Assembly (NCBI GenBank): GCA_021806545.1
Contig: JAJZXI010000009.1
Location: forward strand, 1 to 34,038
Reading direction: 5' to 3'
DNA length: 34,038 bases
DNA from: Actinomycetes bacterium
GTDB taxonomy: Bacteria; Actinomycetota; Acidimicrobiia; Acidimicrobiales; Acidimicrobiaceae
The position numbers and the translations under genes were made by a program. This document shows, one piece after another, positions 13,093 through 21,328 of this stretch. Under the pieces are notes generated by a model. It saw nothing but the letters and a program-made list of their open reading frames with translations. It did not search any database and was not told where the DNA came from. The first letter of the stretch is position 1, and each line of letters starts with the position of its first letter.

Positions 13093-15456
13093 GTGAGCGG
13101 CGCGACGGTAGAGGCGAGGCGAGGTCCGACCATTAGCATCGTCGATCAAGATGACCGAGGCGGCGTCAGCACCTCGACGCTCGTCGAGCGGGCAATGCTA
13201 ACTGACCAGCCACAGCCTGTATCTGCACTGATCGACGACTGGCTGATCTCGTCAGGCACCATTGGCATGCCCAATCACGCCCGGATCTCGGAGGCAATAG
13301 TCGAGCTCGACCGTTTCGAAGTCAACCCGCGCACCCTGACCACCGTCGGTTACCACGGGAATCGCCTCGGGTGCTTGCTCGAAAGCTTCCAGAAGTGGTA
13401 CCGCGAACACTCGGACAGACTATCCGATACAGCACCCCTACCCCTGGAACCCTGGTCGCTCGCCAGCGCCGATATCAGCATCAGTGCTCCCGCGGAGCTC
13501 GCTCGCCTTGCCGGTTTCGCATCCGACAACGCAAAGCTCACCATTTCCCGATGGCGGTCACCCGAGTTCGACCCATCGGTCAGGAGGATCATCGAGCAAC
13601 TCACCACGGAGGGCTTCACCCTGTCCGGCCAGTTCCAATGGGCACCTCGACCAACGGTCGACGCCAACGTCCATCAATTCGCGGATCCCGACGAAGAGGT
13701 CGCCTGGGTGCTGGCCGAGCTTTCCAACCTTGTGCACCACGGCGACTTCGCAACGGACGAGATCGTCATCTACGCGCCATCGGAGCCCAGTTACCAGCGA
13801 GCCCTGCGACATTACAGCACCTCATTCGGCCTGCCCATCTACCGGCACGACAAGCGCCGGGCTGACGTAACCAACTTGGGCCGCCACCTGATGGAGCTCG
13901 TTGAATTTCTCGAGTTCGGTCGTGTGCTTGGTTCTGCTCACCGTAGTCGTGCACTCGCCAACCTGGTAGCACAAACAGGTGTCCCATCACACGACGTTGG
14001 GCGCGGGGAACTCACCTCGTGGTTCACGCGAACGATGGATCATCTCGTCAAACGCCCCGGCCTCAGCTCACAGGTCACACCACTCGACTTACGGCTGGTG
14101 GCCGATCTGACGCTTGAGCTGGAGCGTTCGCCGACTGCCGGGAGGGAAAACACGACCGTCACGGAGTTTCTCGGCGTCGTCCTTCAACTCCTCCACCTCA
14201 TCGATCTCGACACAGCCTCCAACACCAACGGCATCCGAGTCGCTGATCTCGGGAGTCAGATCCATAGCTATGCACTGGTCGCCGTGCTCGGCGCCGTCGA
14301 TGGTCACTTCCCGTCCGTCTTAGCGGAGAACCCCGTTTTGCCGCTCGCAGTGCGCGACCGTATCGAGGGTTTGCCGACGACCGCTGAGCTCGTCCAGATG
14401 CGACGCATCGGTGCCATCGGAGCCCTACAGGCGGCACGTCGCCACCTCATCGTCACAACCGCAAAGCGGATTGGTTCCGAGAGAACACTCCCGAGTCTGC
14501 TTCTCGAGGAGCTTGGCCTGCTCGCGACGAGTGCGCCGCCACGTTTTGCCGTTCTCCCCATGGAGCGCCAGCCCCTGGTGCCCGCTGCCACACCTCTAGG
14601 CGAACGCCTCGACCAGGCCGTGACTATCGAACGAAGTCGCATTCACGAGAGCGAACCCGGCGAATACACCGGCCAGGTCGGCCCACTCTCAGCCCGCAGC
14701 CTTTCACCGACTCAGCTCGAGGACCTTGGTCAATGCCCGTTCCGATGGTTCCTCAAGCATCACCTTCGCGTCCACGCTCCGGATGAGGCAACCAACGAAC
14801 CCGACCCGCGCCTTTTGGGTCAATTGGTACATGCAGTGCTTGAACGACTAACCGAGCAGGAGCGCTCCGAACTAGATGTCTTGGCGATCGAGTCGATGCT
14901 GCAGGCTCATGCCTCTCCCTCGCTGCAAGAGCAAACCCCAAACTGGCGACCCATTCGTGCCGAAATCGCAAAGCAGCTGTGGGCTGTCATCAATCACCCC
15001 GAGTTTGCCCCTCCTGGTTACTTCCCGCGTGTGGAGCTCGAACTTCGGGGCGACTGGTACGGAATACCGGTCGTTGGCCGAATCGATCGACTTGACGAGA
15101 CCGGACCCGAAGGCCATCGGATTATCGACTACAAGTACTCGAAGTCCGCACCAGTCGGAATCCAAAACGCCGAGCGCCGTCTCGTGGTCGATGTACAACT
15201 ATCCGTCTATACCCAGCTGGTCGAACAATGCGTAGGACACGTGGTGAGCGCCAAGTATTGCCTCGTCAAAAAGGCGGAGTTCATCAAACCACCTGGCTCC
15301 TCGAAAGGTGATACCCCGGCGATCGAGGCCTCCGCCCTCATAGCGGAGCGCCTTCGCACCGGCTGCCTTCCTGTGGCACCCGACGGTGATCGGCTCGCCT
15401 GCAAGTATTGCGATCATGCCCAGGCCTGTCGGATTGCGAGCGCCAATGCCGGTTAG
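13093..15456 (+). CDS. AddB-like PD-(D/E)XK nuclease with Fe-S motif
   Basis: This 787-residue protein resembles AddB of recombination helicase-nucleases. Its N-terminal 500 residues keep helicase-like segments, such as FADPDEEVAWVLAEL (196-210) and LVAVLGAVDGHFPSVL (395-410), but show no Walker A, so no motor activity is expected. The C-terminal nuclease looks complete: GQLVH (576-580), ELRGDWYG and GRID with D665, IIDYK with D679 and K681, then VQLSVY with Q702. C548 plus C770-x2-C773-x5-C779 match the iron-staple arrangement. It would degrade or trim DNA ends with the following helicase. Known AddB proteins are usually over 1000 residues. GTG 13093 is the longest start. Confidence 0.82.
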   Translation: MSGATVEARRGPTISIVDQDDRGGVSTSTLVERAMLTDQPQPVSALIDDWLISSGTIGMPNHARISEAIVELDRFEVNPRTLTTVGYHGNRLGCLLESFQKWYREHSDRLSDTAPLPLEPWSLASADISISAPAELARLAGFASDNAKLTISRWRSPEFDPSVRRIIEQLTTEGFTLSGQFQWAPRPTVDANVHQFADPDEEVAWVLAELSNLVHHGDFATDEIVIYAPSEPSYQRALRHYSTSFGLPIYRHDKRRADVTNLGRHLMELVEFLEFGRVLGSAHRSRALANLVAQTGVPSHDVGRGELTSWFTRTMDHLVKRPGLSSQVTPLDLRLVADLTLELERSPTAGRENTTVTEFLGVVLQLLHLIDLDTASNTNGIRVADLGSQIHSYALVAVLGAVDGHFPSVLAENPVLPLAVRDRIEGLPTTAELVQMRRIGAIGALQAARRHLIVTTAKRIGSERTLPSLLLEELGLLATSAPPRFAVLPMERQPLVPAATPLGERLDQAVTIERSRIHESEPGEYTGQVGPLSARSLSPTQLEDLGQCPFRWFLKHHLRVHAPDEATNEPDPRLLGQLVHAVLERLTEQERSELDVLAIESMLQAHASPSLQEQTPNWRPIRAEIAKQLWAVINHPEFAPPGYFPRVELELRGDWYGIPVVGRIDRLDETGPEGHRIIDYKYSKSAPVGIQNAERRLVVDVQLSVYTQLVEQCVGHVVSAKYCLVKKAEFIKPPGSSKGDTPAIEASALIAERLRTGCLPVAPDGDRLACKYCDHAQACRIASANAG

Positions 15457-15534
15457 CCGGTCGAGGCGCATGCGAACCGACACCGGTATGTGCCGACACG
15501 ATTCTGCTCCGGTTCTCGATCGGAGTCATCGATA

Positions 15535-18500
15535 ATGGGGCTCAACCCCCGTCAGCTTGAAGCGGTCGCTGCACAAGGTACGGTTGCAATCTCGGCCGGC
15601 GCAGGAACCGGCAAGACACAGACGATGGCGGCTCGTTATCTTGCCCATGTCGAGGCAGGTATGCGACCGCTTGAGGTCGTAGCCGTGACCTTCACCGTTC
15701 GAGCGGCATCAGAGCTTCGCCGACGGATCCTCGAACAGCTGCGAGAAAAGCTCCCCATCAACGACCCACGGATCCTCGAGGTTGAGGTTGCACCTATTGG
15801 CACCATCCACTCACTGTGCCAACGTATCTGCAGTGAATTCCCGGTCGAGTCGGGACTCAATTACGACTTCGTCGTTGCCGACGAGACCACTTACCAGCAG
15901 CTCTTGGCTCAGGAGCTGCCCCATCTCCTCGAGGCGGTTCCTCCCAACACCTACGAGTTGATCGACTACTCCGCGCTCAAGGGGTTCGTCGCAAGTTTCC
16001 TCGGTGACCTGGAGAAGTTTCGACGCGCCATGACGGTCGACATCGCGGAGATTAAGGCCAGCATCGCCGCCGCACGACTCCGGGTGCTCGAAGACGGAGC
16101 CCTGCCCCTCTTCGAGCACCAGTTGAGCCAGTGCGAGGCGCTCACTTTGAACGACCGAATTGAGCAGGCTCGGCGGGTAGCGCTCGCGGGTCTACGGTCA
16201 CTGTTACACGGCGACGATGCAGGCTTTGGTATGTTGGCGGCCATTGATCTACGTGGGGGCTCCGCAAAAAACTGGATCCCCGGCGAGCTGACGCTCATCA
16301 AGGACACGCTTCGCGCACTACGCGACTATCTGCGTTCACTGCCCAGCTATGTCGTCTACGGATTCAACCAGACCGACGAAGAGCACCAGGTGATCCTTCA
16401 GGAGGTCTCCAAGGCGGTGGAACTCGTAGCGGCGCAGCTCGTCGAGCTCAAACGATCACGTGGCATCGCCGACTTCAACGACCTCGAGCTGCACGCCGTG
16501 CAAGCCCTCAAAGATGACATGGTCTGCAGGGAACTCACCACCCGGTTTCGAGCCATTCTGGTCGATGAGGTACAGGACATAAGCCCACTACAGTACGAGC
16601 TTCTCACCCGGCTCGGACGTGCGGCGTCGCTCGCTGCAGTCGGCGACGTCAAACAGTCGCTCTATCGCTTCCGCGGCGCCGATCCAGACCTCTTCGCGCG
16701 ACAGATCGCTCAAAGCGCCGTACACGTCACCCTCGAAGAGAACTACCGCACCGTTCCGGGGCTCGTAGAGTTCGTCAACCACACCTTCGATGGGCTCCTA
16801 CCGGAGTACGAAGCGCTCAGTCCTCGCCGTACGACGTCCTTCCCACGGCCGCCCGTCGAGATACTCCTCGTCGACGACTCTTCAGATGCGACGCTCACGC
16901 AGAGGCGTCAAGCCCTCGCACGCCAAATAGGCCATCGTATCTTCGGTCTTCTCGAGGAGCCCTTTGAGATCGTCGACCCTCGAACGAACCTACGCCGCCA
17001 GGTGCGGCCCCATGACATCGCGATTATCTCATCCCGATGGACAATGCTCGACGCGGTTGCCGAGGAGCTGCAGCGCGTTGGGCTCGTGGCCAACATCGTT
17101 GGTGGTGGCCAACTGCTTGGCACGCAGGAGGCTCTCGATGTGTTGACCATCCTCGCATTCTGTGATAACCCCCACGACGATCTTGCCTGCATAGCGCTCA
17201 TGCGATCACCGATGATTGGCATCAGTGATCGCGAACTTGCAACGTTGGCAGAACGCAAAGGACGCTCCGTCTCGTGGTTCAGTTTTCTCAACGACGAACT
17301 CAGGGGCGATCCACGGCTCGAGGCACTGAAGTACTTGCCATACTCCCCCACTGCGCTCTCGCCAAGCGATCAGCTGGCCCAGGCTGGAGATCTACTCCTG
17401 TACCCGGAACTCCTTGCACGACTCAATCATCACGAACGCCGTCGCGCTGACTGGATCGCACTCCTTGATCTCGTCGATGACCGAAGCAGGGAGGGCCTCG
17501 ACACCCAAGCAGTCATCATGTACCTACGTCAAGCTATCAGTGATCAAGCGCGTATTCGACGACCACCCATTGAGGCAGAGGACTCGGTCTCACTCGTGAC
17601 GATCCACGCCTCCAAGGGGCTGGAATGGCCGATCACATTCGTGATCGACCTGGATCGTAGCCCAAGCCGCTCACCCAGGCAGCTCATTGATCCACACCGA
17701 GGTGTCGCCTTCACCCTCAACGGGGAGCCGTCCGGCCACCTGTCATGGATCTACGAACACCAGCTGAGAGAAGATCTCCTCGAGGAACATCGCCGATGGT
17801 ATGTCGCCACTACGCGAGCCCGCGATCATCTCATTTTGGGCTTTGCTTCGCGGTCGCAGGTTGATGAACTTCTTACCCGAGTCGAAGAACAGTTCCAGGT
17901 GTCTCAGATCCCCATCGACATTGCGCCGGCAACCCCACGCATCACGCCTGAGGCTCGGACCGCACGCTACCGATTACCAGCGGTCGACCTCAGTACCCCT
18001 TCGCCGGCGATCCGTCGATCAATCACGAGCCGAGCACTCGATGACTTCCGCCGCTGTCCGCTCCTGCTCGCCTCGTCGGAGCCCCCGTTTGGACCCGTGG
18101 GTCGGCTCCGCACGCTGTTAAGCCAACGCGCACGCGATGGCCTTTCGGTCAGTGAGCGCGATCTACCGTGGATGGGAGCACGCGATGCGCGTACACTCTT
18201 GCAAGCGGTGGGAGGCTACCAACTGCAACTCGCTTCTCACCTGATTAAACGGCCAGCGCTACGCGAAGGTACCACCAGAATCGGAGCCTGGTCAATTGCG
18301 TGGGGTCCTTTCCTCGACGACCAAGAGTCTCTCATCGATCTCGCCTTCGACGAAGGTGACCTCGTCGGCCTAGCCCTTGCCCACGCGGAGCAACCAGTTT
18401 CCCGAGCCGGTATCTATTATCTCACCCAGTCACGCATCCACTGGCTCTCACCGCCGGAGTTGGCACGAACCGCGGCGCAACTGACCTCACTGGTGCACGA

Positions 18501-18609
18501 ACTCAGCAGCAAACCGCCAAGTCCGCGTGAAGACCGTGCATCGGTGTGCCGAAACTGTCGGCGCAGCGACGTGTGTCACTGGGTTCAGTCCCAAGACCAT
18601 AGGCTCTAA
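15535..18609 (+). CDS. UvrD/AddA-like superfamily 1 helicase, nuclease domain degenerate
   Basis: A 1024-residue SF1A helicase. Motor motifs are all present: NPRQ (4-7, Q motif), AGAGTGKT (21-28, Walker A), VTFTVRAA, VDEVQD (343-348), GDVKQSLYRFRGA (370-382), ENYRT (402-406), TIHASKGLEW (689-698) and VATTRARD (757-764). The last 200 residues look like a RecB-type nuclease domain that has kept C841, C1005, C1008 and C1014 in the C-x2-C-x5-C pattern. The His, Asp and D-Y-K residues of a working nuclease are missing. ATG 15535 is chosen over the TTG-type start at 15490 because homology begins there and CGGAG lies nine bases ahead. It follows the AddB-like gene by 78 bases. Confidence 0.88.
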   Translation: MGLNPRQLEAVAAQGTVAISAGAGTGKTQTMAARYLAHVEAGMRPLEVVAVTFTVRAASELRRRILEQLREKLPINDPRILEVEVAPIGTIHSLCQRICSEFPVESGLNYDFVVADETTYQQLLAQELPHLLEAVPPNTYELIDYSALKGFVASFLGDLEKFRRAMTVDIAEIKASIAAARLRVLEDGALPLFEHQLSQCEALTLNDRIEQARRVALAGLRSLLHGDDAGFGMLAAIDLRGGSAKNWIPGELTLIKDTLRALRDYLRSLPSYVVYGFNQTDEEHQVILQEVSKAVELVAAQLVELKRSRGIADFNDLELHAVQALKDDMVCRELTTRFRAILVDEVQDISPLQYELLTRLGRAASLAAVGDVKQSLYRFRGADPDLFARQIAQSAVHVTLEENYRTVPGLVEFVNHTFDGLLPEYEALSPRRTTSFPRPPVEILLVDDSSDATLTQRRQALARQIGHRIFGLLEEPFEIVDPRTNLRRQVRPHDIAIISSRWTMLDAVAEELQRVGLVANIVGGGQLLGTQEALDVLTILAFCDNPHDDLACIALMRSPMIGISDRELATLAERKGRSVSWFSFLNDELRGDPRLEALKYLPYSPTALSPSDQLAQAGDLLLYPELLARLNHHERRRADWIALLDLVDDRSREGLDTQAVIMYLRQAISDQARIRRPPIEAEDSVSLVTIHASKGLEWPITFVIDLDRSPSRSPRQLIDPHRGVAFTLNGEPSGHLSWIYEHQLREDLLEEHRRWYVATTRARDHLILGFASRSQVDELLTRVEEQFQVSQIPIDIAPATPRITPEARTARYRLPAVDLSTPSPAIRRSITSRALDDFRRCPLLLASSEPPFGPVGRLRTLLSQRARDGLSVSERDLPWMGARDARTLLQAVGGYQLQLASHLIKRPALREGTTRIGAWSIAWGPFLDDQESLIDLAFDEGDLVGLALAHAEQPVSRAGIYYLTQSRIHWLSPPELARTAAQLTSLVHELSSKPPSPREDRASVCRNCRRSDVCHWVQSQDHRL

Positions 18610-18611
18610 CC

Positions 18612-19151
18612 GTGTCCTCAATTGATCTCGCAGGCTTCATAACCGACGTCAAAGGCCAAGCTGTCCACCACGGCTTTCACGTGCACGACGAACGTCACTT
18701 CATGGAGACCTATTCACTCCGCCAGTGGTGGGAGGTTGACCTGCACCCCGAATCCGGCTGTGGATCTCCAATGGAGCTTCATCTGGCGCTCGACGTTGAC
18801 CCACGCGTCCTTCTTGCCTTTGACGACGCGGTGACGACTGCGGCAGATCCCGACTCCATCCCGGATGATTTCTTTTTCCCTTTGACCCTGACCTGGACCT
18901 TACCCGCGCCCACTATCGATCTTCTCAACCTCGCACTCAACCTCGCAGGACTGACGGGGATGTCACTCCCGTTGGAGGTCGCGGCAACCGACAGCTACGG
19001 CTCCCCAGCTGCGACGCCAGAGCGTGCCATCAGCGTGACGGCCCGTCGATCGGTGTCGCTATCAAAAATTCTCGAAGGAGAGGAGACGATCGTTGAAACA
19101 CTTCAGCGCGCTAACGACGTCAGTCTTTTTCTCCTCAAACTCGTCCAATAG
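18612..19151 (+). CDS. unknown protein encoded with the helicase-nuclease genes
   Basis: I do not recognise this 179-residue protein. GTG 18612 begins two bases after the helicase stop, so it is almost surely cotranslated with it. The protein is acidic and soluble, without membrane segments or signal peptide. It contains HHGFHVHDERHFMET (19-33, rich in His), a double Trp (RQWWEVDLHP), a Pro/Asp-rich loop near 80, DDFFFPLTLTWTL (84-96), and a long C-terminal helix-forming region (150-179). The segment pattern suggests a beta-rich core followed by helices. By position it is a candidate third subunit or regulator of the helicase-nuclease. Function is open. Confidence 0.75.
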   Translation: MSSIDLAGFITDVKGQAVHHGFHVHDERHFMETYSLRQWWEVDLHPESGCGSPMELHLALDVDPRVLLAFDDAVTTAADPDSIPDDFFFPLTLTWTLPAPTIDLLNLALNLAGLTGMSLPLEVAATDSYGSPAATPERAISVTARRSVSLSKILEGEETIVETLQRANDVSLFLLKLVQ

Positions 19152-19226: not shown

Positions 19227-19581
19227 ATGAGTGACGCCTCTCTGGTGGTCGCGGTGGCCCGCTACAACCAGATGCGCTCGCAGAGATTTTCGGCGGCACG
19301 GACGAGCGGTACATGCGCTCGTCAAACGAGTGACGCACGACTCGGCACTGGCTGAAGAGGTCACACAAGAGCTCTTCGTCCGCCTGTGGAATGAACCCGA
19401 GCGTTACGACCCTGCACGCGGGACGTTGCGCACCTTCCTTTTGCTGCAGGCCCAGCGACGTTCCATCGACATTATCCGGTCCGAAGAAGCACGAAAGCGG
19501 CGAGAGCTCAGTGACGCTGCCACCATCGCGACGTCCTCCTACAATATCGACCATGAGTTTGGCGATCTCGCAGACAGAGAG
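19227..19581 (+). pseudogene. ECF sigma factor remnant
   Basis: From ATG 19227 the frame reads SDASLVVAVARYNQ, then needs two single-base deletions (near 19271 and 19287) to continue through DALAEI and then FRRHGRAVHALVKRVTHDSALAEEVTQELFVRLWNEPERYDPARG. This is sigma region 2 of an extracytoplasmic-function sigma factor, with SIDIIRSEEARKRRE after it. Similarity stops at about 19581 in LADRE, before the promoter-recognising region 4. No region 4 or anti-sigma gene follows. The gene is therefore broken twice near its start and truncated at its end. Confidence 0.8.
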
Positions 19582-19768
19582 ACTCCTATTACATCCCGCG
19601 ATGGGCCCCGTGCAAACCCGAGCCAAGTTTGTTACACGGTAGGGCTGCTGGGCTCCTCGGCGGCTGGCCCAGCACCTGATAGGTACTATCGGATAGTTTG
19701 CCCTTTGAGATCGGTCCTTGAGACGACCGAACCGCAAGCCAGGAATGCGCCACGAGTAGGATCGAGGG

Positions 19769-21328
19769 ATGACCGAAACGCTATTTAGCCGTGTGCAGGC
19801 CAACCTCGATATGCTCAACCACGCTATCGTTGATCAGATCAGATCCTTGGTGAGTTCAGGCACCCTCGAGACCGAGCAAGTCAAGGCCTATCAGCTTTCC
19901 CAAAGTGCCGCAGCGTTGCTCGCGATACCGACCATGATCGAGTATGCGGCGCACGGAGAACACGAACGAGACGTCGCGGCTCTGTACTGTGTGCAGACGT
20001 TGCGCGACACCGCGGCATCACTTCTGCAGGCAGGGCTCCTCGACCCTCTCGTGAGTCAGAGCATATTTTCGAGCGATCTTCAGATCGACACTGGGGTGGT
20101 TCAGCGAGTGGCGCTCGATCCAGGCCCGGCTCACCTCAGCACTGACTTGGAGTTGGCCGCCGATGCATTTCGGCGCGTTGCTGAGGACAAGATAGCCCCT
20201 TATGCCGACGAAATACATCGCCATAACCTGGATATCCCCGAGGCAATCATCGATCAACTGGCCCAAATGGGCGCCTTTGGCCTGTCGATTCCGGAGCAAT
20301 TTGGCGGCTCGTCAACCGAGAGCGCCGAGGATCTGATTGCCATGCTCATCGCCACTGAGGAGCTTTCACGTGCCTCCCTCGGCGCCGGCGGTTCCTTGAT
20401 CACCCGACCGGAGATTCTCTCCAAGGCCCTCCTCGCAGGGGGGACCCAGGAGCAGAAGCAACGTTACCTGCCGGCGCTTGCCTCCGGCGAGCTCATGGGC
20501 GCGGTCGCGGTTACCGAGCCGGACTTCGGCTCCGACGTTGCTCACATCACAACCACCGCCACGCCTACCGCCGACGGTTGGCGCATCAGTGGCACCAAGA
20601 CCTGGTGCACCTTCGCGGGAAGGGCCGAAATCCTTGCCGTCTTGGCACGAACCGACCCTGACCGTAACCTCGGACATCGGGGCCTCTCCTTGTTCTTCGT
20701 CGACAAGCCTCGGTTCCAGGGAGAGAGTTTTCGCTACGAGGCCAATGGTGGCGTCATAGAGGGCCGTGCTATCGCTACGCTTGGCTACCGTGGAATGCAC
20801 TCCTACGAGGTAAGTCTCGACAACGTCCTGGTTCCAGAGAACCAGCTGATCGGCGAGTCGGGTGGCCTCGGTCGGGGGTTCTACCTCCAAATGGCCGGGT
20901 TCGAGAACGGAAGAATCCAGACGGCCGCTCGGGCTATTGGCGTCATGCAGGCAGCTTATGAGGCCGCCCGTACCTACGCAGAGGGACGCTTGGTGTTTGG
21001 CCAGTCTTTGATCGACTACCAGCTCACCCGGGCCAAGCTCGCAAGGATTGCGGCAACCATTCAGGCGGGGCGACAGCTGACCTATGCGGTGGCGCGACTA
21101 CTCGCACACCACCAAGGATCTCTTGAAGCATCGATGACCAAGGCGTATACCTGTCGGGCAGCCGAGTGGGTCACGAGGGAGGCCATGCAGCTTCATGGTG
21201 GGATGGGTTATGCAGAGGAGTACCCAGTGAGCCGGTACTTCGTCGATGCGCGGGTCCTCTCCATCTTCGAGGGTGCAGAGGAGACGCTGGCGCTCAAGGT
21301 GATCGCGAGAGGGCTTGCCCGTCGGTAG
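19769..21328 (+). CDS. mcd: acyl-CoA dehydrogenase, probably (2S)-methylsuccinyl-CoA dehydrogenase
   Basis: A 519-residue flavoprotein with an N-terminal helical extension of about 120 residues before the acyl-CoA dehydrogenase fold. Such an extension is known for methylsuccinyl-CoA dehydrogenase of the ethylmalonyl-CoA pathway. The fold shows MGAFGLSIPEQFGG (171-184), TEPDFGSD, ISGTKTWCTFAGRA, LGYRGMHSYEV, FENGRIQTAARAIGV and the catalytic glutamate in IFEGAEE (E501). The last segments match Mcd more closely than ordinary acyl-CoA dehydrogenases in my recollection. The enzyme would oxidise methylsuccinyl-CoA to mesaconyl-CoA. ATG 19769 follows AGTAGGATCGAGGG. A different branched acyl-CoA substrate cannot be excluded. 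Confidence 0.75.
   Translation: MTETLFSRVQANLDMLNHAIVDQIRSLVSSGTLETEQVKAYQLSQSAAALLAIPTMIEYAAHGEHERDVAALYCVQTLRDTAASLLQAGLLDPLVSQSIFSSDLQIDTGVVQRVALDPGPAHLSTDLELAADAFRRVAEDKIAPYADEIHRHNLDIPEAIIDQLAQMGAFGLSIPEQFGGSSTESAEDLIAMLIATEELSRASLGAGGSLITRPEILSKALLAGGTQEQKQRYLPALASGELMGAVAVTEPDFGSDVAHITTTATPTADGWRISGTKTWCTFAGRAEILAVLARTDPDRNLGHRGLSLFFVDKPRFQGESFRYEANGGVIEGRAIATLGYRGMHSYEVSLDNVLVPENQLIGESGGLGRGFYLQMAGFENGRIQTAARAIGVMQAAYEAARTYAEGRLVFGQSLIDYQLTRAKLARIAATIQAGRQLTYAVARLLAHHQGSLEASMTKAYTCRAAEWVTREAMQLHGGMGYAEEYPVSRYFVDARVLSIFEGAEETLALKVIARGLARR

Follow-up and report, generated by a model that had tools for sequence, protein, structure and literature searches.

The numbers of motors and nucleases vary among the helicase-nucleases RecBCD, AddAB and AdnAB, and a locus in a 34,038 bp contig of an acidimicrobial actinomycete (JAJZXI010000009.1, referred to in full as the window) raises the question of whether an enzyme of this kind can operate with a single motor in one subunit and a single nuclease in the other. 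An earlier note on this DNA had read three adjacent genes as one helicase-nuclease unit with divided labor. The three reading frames lie where that note placed them, at 13093-15456, 15490-18609 and 18612-19151, all on the forward strand. The features of the locus are as follows.

13093-15456, forward strand: addB-like gene encoding P0001 (787 aa), with a helicase-like N-terminal part and a PD-(D/E)XK nuclease
14698-15432, forward strand: PD-(D/E)XK nuclease domain of P0001 (Pfam PDDEXK_1)
15490-18609, forward strand: addA-like gene encoding P0002 (1039 aa), with an SF1A motor and a catalytically dead nuclease-like tail
15598-17823, forward strand: motif span of the P0002 SF1 motor, Walker A (GAGTGKT) through motif VI (YVATTRAR)
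18025-18579, forward strand: nuclease-like tail of P0002 (approximately residues 846-1030), with the catalytic residues gone and C856, C1020, C1023 and C1029 invariant
18612-19151, forward strand: gene encoding P0003 (179 aa), conserved across the order and next to the addA-like gene

P0001 is an AddB-like nuclease without a motor

The first protein was described in the earlier note as having a full nuclease set and no Walker A, and both observations are borne out. P0001 covers Pfam PDDEXK_1 from end to end (E 7.9e-33), the active-site residues H580, D665, D679, K681 and Q702 are intact and invariant in an alignment of all ten orthologues, and no Walker A was found in P0001 or in the orthologues. 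Four cysteines, C548, C770, C773 and C779, are also invariant in the ten orthologues and constitute a predicted Fe-S-type motif. P0001 thus has the features by which AddB is recognized: a UvrD/AddB-like fold without a working motor, and a PD-(D/E)XK nuclease accompanied by a putative four-cysteine Fe-S motif.

The structural comparisons point the same way. The AF2 model of P0001 has a mean pLDDT of 65, being usable over approximately residues 9-480 and poor across the nuclease part, and a Foldseek search with it returns B. subtilis AddB as the top match (4ceh_B, E 1.1e-20); the five top matches are all AddB, with RecC and AdnA following. A phmmer search of P0001 against PDB sequences gave no match, whereas a profile of the P0001 family aligns piecewise along AddB, cysteine motif included. 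The nuclease region also aligns to AdnA in profile searches. Relative to AddB, P0001 is about 120 residues shorter before residue 192 and about 90 shorter in its middle part, and in total it is some 380 residues shorter than the B. subtilis protein. It also evolves fast, as judged by comparison of dN/dS values.

P0002 is an AddA-like motor with a dead nuclease tail

The second protein had been credited with a complete SF1 motor and a tail devoid of catalytic residues, and examination of the ten orthologues agrees on both counts. All of the motifs of an SF1A helicase are present in P0002, including Q22, Walker A at residues 37-43, TFT at 67-69, DEVQ at 359-362, GDVKQS at 385-390, HASKGLEW at 706-713 and YVATTRAR at 771-778, and the residues of these motifs are mostly invariant across the orthologues. 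Translation more probably starts at the ATG at 15535 (M16) than at 15490, because the orthologue alignment begins there. Among proteins of solved structure, the best match to P0002 is B. subtilis AddA (profile E 3e-76), and AddA is also the best-scoring model in a search of curated models (E 7e-68), although the score is under that model's cut-off. Profile searches of the kind that the earlier note had suggested place P0001 with AddB and P0002 with AddA.

No nuclease Pfam family matches the P0002 tail. The states of AddA tails were assigned by hand reading together with profile scores; the profiles were derived from intact AddA nuclease tails, which themselves score at least 35 bits. The P0002-type tails of the ten orthologues score 1-22 bits and are full-sized, with 232-269 residues after the motor; other nuclease-less AddAs mostly have tails of fewer than 100 residues that score below 10 bits. 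None of the ten orthologues keeps the H, the D-x-K strand or the Q, each being substituted or deleted, and P0002 thus lacks the active C-terminal RecB-type nuclease of a standard AddA. One residue, D950, may match the first Asp of the nuclease site, in the window's genus only. Cysteines C856, C1020, C1023 and C1029, however, are present in ten of ten orthologues, and hhalign aligns the end of the P0002-type tail, cysteines included, with the cyanobacterial AddA nuclease over 62 columns (probability 92, E 6.2e-7). The tail has dN/dS values of 0.15-0.28, indicative of purifying selection, and the range for motor, tail and nuclease together is 0.08-0.28; none of the three is therefore a pseudogene. 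Judged from the alignments and substitution rates, the tail is a maintained non-catalytic domain and not debris.

RecC provides a parallel, in that its nuclease-like domain is dead and has been redeployed as a DNA guide, forming a hoop for single-stranded DNA (PMC1185551). There is no motor in RecC either, whereas the dead nuclease of P0002 sits on the motor subunit. By analogy with RecC, the dead, cysteine-bearing AddA tail probably has a structural role, guiding or clamping DNA or AddB.

One motor and one nuclease

The inventory of domains and active sites upholds the central claim of the earlier note, that one subunit has the only complete motor and the other the only complete nuclease; the two findings that would contradict it, a Walker A in the first protein and a nuclease triad in the second, were both sought and neither was seen. 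Among 60 relatives, P0001-type proteins are found in a single family, comprising seven species of genus g1, two of g5 (one represented by a fragment) and two of g7. The three genes are kept together in all three genera, so the conservation of the trio on which the earlier reading depended is real. Both the intact P0001 nuclease and the dead P0002 tail are fixed in ten species of these three related genera, which excludes chance and assembly error. Each genome with the trio has a single AddA-like match, which in one genome is split over two contigs.

A second system of recBCD or adnAB type, which the earlier note had thought worth seeking, did not emerge: a search of the window's genome for AddA, RecB and AddB found no other such protein, no other AddAB or AdnAB, and no other RecB-like chain with both motor and nuclease. 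The locus also differs from RecBCD, where motor and active nuclease reside in one RecB chain, since P0002 has no nuclease site.

The sole other PDDEXK_1 match in the genome is a stand-alone 274-aa PD-(D/E)XK RecB-like exonuclease (L312, genome G000 contig C48), with a site that looks intact and includes H, GVIDRLD and VVDYK.

Could a second nuclease nonetheless be at work, either through an unrecognised site in the P0002 tail or through the 274-aa protein cutting the 3' strand in trans? The retained size of the tail, its four cysteines and the single Asp in the window's genus speak for the first version, and the intact-looking site of the 274-aa protein for the second. However, the H, D-x-K and Q residues are gone from every P0002 orthologue, cyanobacterial relatives do without the whole AddA nuclease domain, and the gene for the 274-aa protein is at a separate place in the genome, with nothing linking it to addAB. 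We therefore regard a second nuclease as unlikely, and favor a pair in which P0001 is the only nuclease.

P0003 is a conserved neighbor

The P0003 gene begins two bases after the stop codon of P0002 (18610-18611), and the earlier note had counted its product as part of a three-gene unit. This part of the reading is not supported. Relatives of P0003 are present in 45 of the 60 genomes of the order, have varied neighbors and, among the genera examined, are not near addAB outside g1, g5 and g7. P0003 is also under far stronger constraint, with dN/dS of 0.007-0.023 compared with 0.1-0.25 for addA and addB, evolving about ten times more slowly. It matches no Pfam family and none of the defence models, and contains an invariant cluster of residues, H23/H25/E27/H29/E32. 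The predicted structure is confident (pLDDT 90.3). Foldseek found no significant match to it, and a second structural alignment gave a YbjN or type-III-secretion-chaperone-like arrangement (Z 7-9), which may be a common one and is taken to imply no function.

That P0003 is a true third subunit or a regulator of the AddAB-like pair is improbable. Speaking for such a complex are the tight adjacency of 2 to about 10 bases throughout g1, g5 and g7 and the sigma-factor gene that follows P0003 in g1 and g7; against it, we know of no P0003-like partner for AddAB. Because P0003 is found order-wide, is unlinked to addAB elsewhere and is so much more constrained, it is probably not an AddAB subunit but a neighbor with a function of its own, perhaps co-transcribed with the addBA genes.

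In the window, the ECF sigma-factor gene at 19231-19788 is frame-shifted near codon 16, its last part is gone and the anti-sigma gene is absent; a genus mate (L081, 11504-12879) has an intact ECF sigma-factor gene followed by an anti-sigma gene.

A putative 5'-strand resection enzyme

Taken as a whole, we consider it probable that P0001 and P0002 constitute an AddAB-type break resector with one motor (AddA) and one nuclease (AddB), cutting the 5' strand and using the dead tail as a guide, with P0003 as a neighbor. That the two proteins form one complex is something we infer from homology and gene order. It is highly improbable that the pair serves, in the manner of Gabija or a similar system, as a helicase-nuclease for defence against foreign DNA instead of break repair: GajB models match the P0002 motor and P0001 evolves fast, but those matches reflect the shared SF1 motor and are far outscored by AddA and RecB models, the partner of P0002 is a PD-(D/E)XK AddB-like protein and not GajA, the OLD-type nuclease that accompanies GajB in Gabija, and the addBA locus stays in place within the genus as the sole such system in the genome.

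The AddAB-type pair resembles B. subtilis AddAB in having an AddB with a helicase-like N-terminal part, a PD-(D/E)XK nuclease and a four-cysteine motif, and an AddA with a single SF1A motor. It differs in that the B. subtilis AddA nuclease works (PMC4824097), whereas that of P0002 is dead yet cysteine-bearing. Other genera of the order also have a motor-less AddB (about 930-1120 aa, without Walker A) encoded next to a motor AddA (about 1100-1250 aa); in those genera, however, the AddA nuclease site is intact in nearly all cases, there is no C-terminal cysteine motif, and the AddAs form a separate clade. The earlier note had regarded the split as unusual, and this is correct for the lost AddA nuclease but not for the motor-less AddB, which is usual both in the order and in B. 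subtilis. What is new in the pair is thus confined to the loss of the AddA nuclease. The pair is an AddAB by descent but falls outside the usual definition of one motor and two nucleases, and without the AddA nuclease it is a variant and not a canonical AddAB.

Mycobacterial AdnAB is likewise a two-subunit motor-nuclease for break resection. Both AdnAB subunits carry a motor and a nuclease, in contrast to the window's pair, in which P0001 has no Walker A, P0002 has no nuclease site and each subunit has one activity. AddAB of H. pylori and Campylobacter, with proteins of similar lengths (Campylobacter AddA is 921 aa and AddB 788 aa), was considered as a precedent and set aside because H. pylori AddAB reportedly has nuclease activity in both subunits.

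In B. subtilis, AddAB combines two nuclease domains with one motor (PMC4824097). The AddA nuclease cuts the 3'-ended strand until Chi is encountered; Chi is read by the N-terminal region of AddB, the 3' strand is then sequestered and the AddB nuclease keeps degrading the 5' strand (PMC4824097; PMC4027173). If these strand roles are transferred to the window's pair, across a great sequence distance, P0002 would pull the 3'-ended strand through AddB and unwind the duplex, the helicase-like part of AddB would guide that strand, and the AddB nuclease would degrade the 5'-ended strand. The counterpart of the domain responsible for pre-Chi cutting of the 3' strand in B. subtilis is dead here, so the 3' strand would be spared and 3' single-stranded tails would be available to RecA from the start, with no Chi switch required. 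With the AddA nuclease removed, the remaining activity would correspond to that of post-Chi AddAB, and the simplest prediction is that the window's enzyme would carry out constitutive, Chi-independent 5'-strand resection.

Apparent recurrent loss of the AddA nuclease

In a tree built from 67 AddA motors, the ten AddAs of the trio form one clade (SH-aLRT 99) that is nested within a clade of cyanobacteria/Deinococcota-type AddAs (SH-aLRT 99), and the order's own AddAs form a separate clade (SH-aLRT 99); the tree gives no support to descent from the order's own AddAB. The cyanobacterial/Deinococcota-type AddAB (L134, L291-L310) is the nearest AddA lineage among the matches listed. This position in the tree implies either that a foreign-type system took the place of the order's usual AddAB, or that these genera retained an old second system and lost the usual one.

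AddAs of the cyanobacteria/Deinococcota type come in two forms, one with the nuclease and, in cyanobacteria, about 1080 aa long and cysteine-bearing, the other without it and mostly 810-900 aa long. When the short-form loci were searched in all six frames, no displaced nuclease turned up, which rules out a frameshift or assembly error that hides a nuclease near the short AddAs. On the evidence of these sequences, the missing AddA nuclease is not peculiar to the window's clade but extends to cyanobacteria and Deinococcota. Unweighted parsimony requires four changes of AddA nuclease state, and more if losses alone are permitted. The nuclease seems to have been lost several times within the cyanobacteria/Deinococcota-type clade, elsewhere by clean deletion; in this sample, a dead domain is retained only in the window's clade. 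Some cyanobacterial/Deinococcota-type members likewise pair a nuclease-less AddA with a nuclease-intact AddB, and where the AddA of a cyanobacterial or Deinococcota pair lacks the nuclease, its AddB partner in most cases retains an intact nuclease and the cysteines. Cyanobacterial split pairs show no shortening of the Chi-reading N-terminal region of AddB relative to non-split pairs, and the length of this region is thus uninformative as a sign of lost Chi reading.

We found no description of an AddA without a nuclease in the literature searched, which excluded most subscription papers, and provisionally regard the one-motor, one-nuclease AddAB as a previously unrecognised variant. A broader proposal, which we offer tentatively and with some doubt, is that it represents a fourth resection architecture, arisen repeatedly in AddAB, that would be 5'-only and Chi-independent, the dead nuclease of the window's clade being reused as a cysteine-bearing guide for DNA, a step that RecC took independently. 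As Chi in AddAB stops 3'-strand cutting, lineages without the 3'-strand nuclease are natural experiments on whether Chi control is dispensable, on how foreign linear DNA is handled without a fully destructive mode, and on the role of the dead nuclease domain. Matched pairs for such a test are available in cyanobacteria, where some AddABs retain the AddA nuclease and others lack it.

The split does not hold throughout the clade, as two Meiothermus-type genomes (L260, 1963-4584; L304, 6058-8286) have a degenerate AddB nuclease together with a nuclease-less AddA; these are possibly nuclease-free AddABs. Some AddAs outside the clade are also short-tailed, for example at Acidobacteria loci L196 and L197. 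A second AddB-like protein of 788 aa, encoded at L261 2122-4488, combines Walker A (GPPASGKT) in its N-terminal part with a C-terminal cysteine motif, and several other Deinococcota genomes contain weak matches of this kind.
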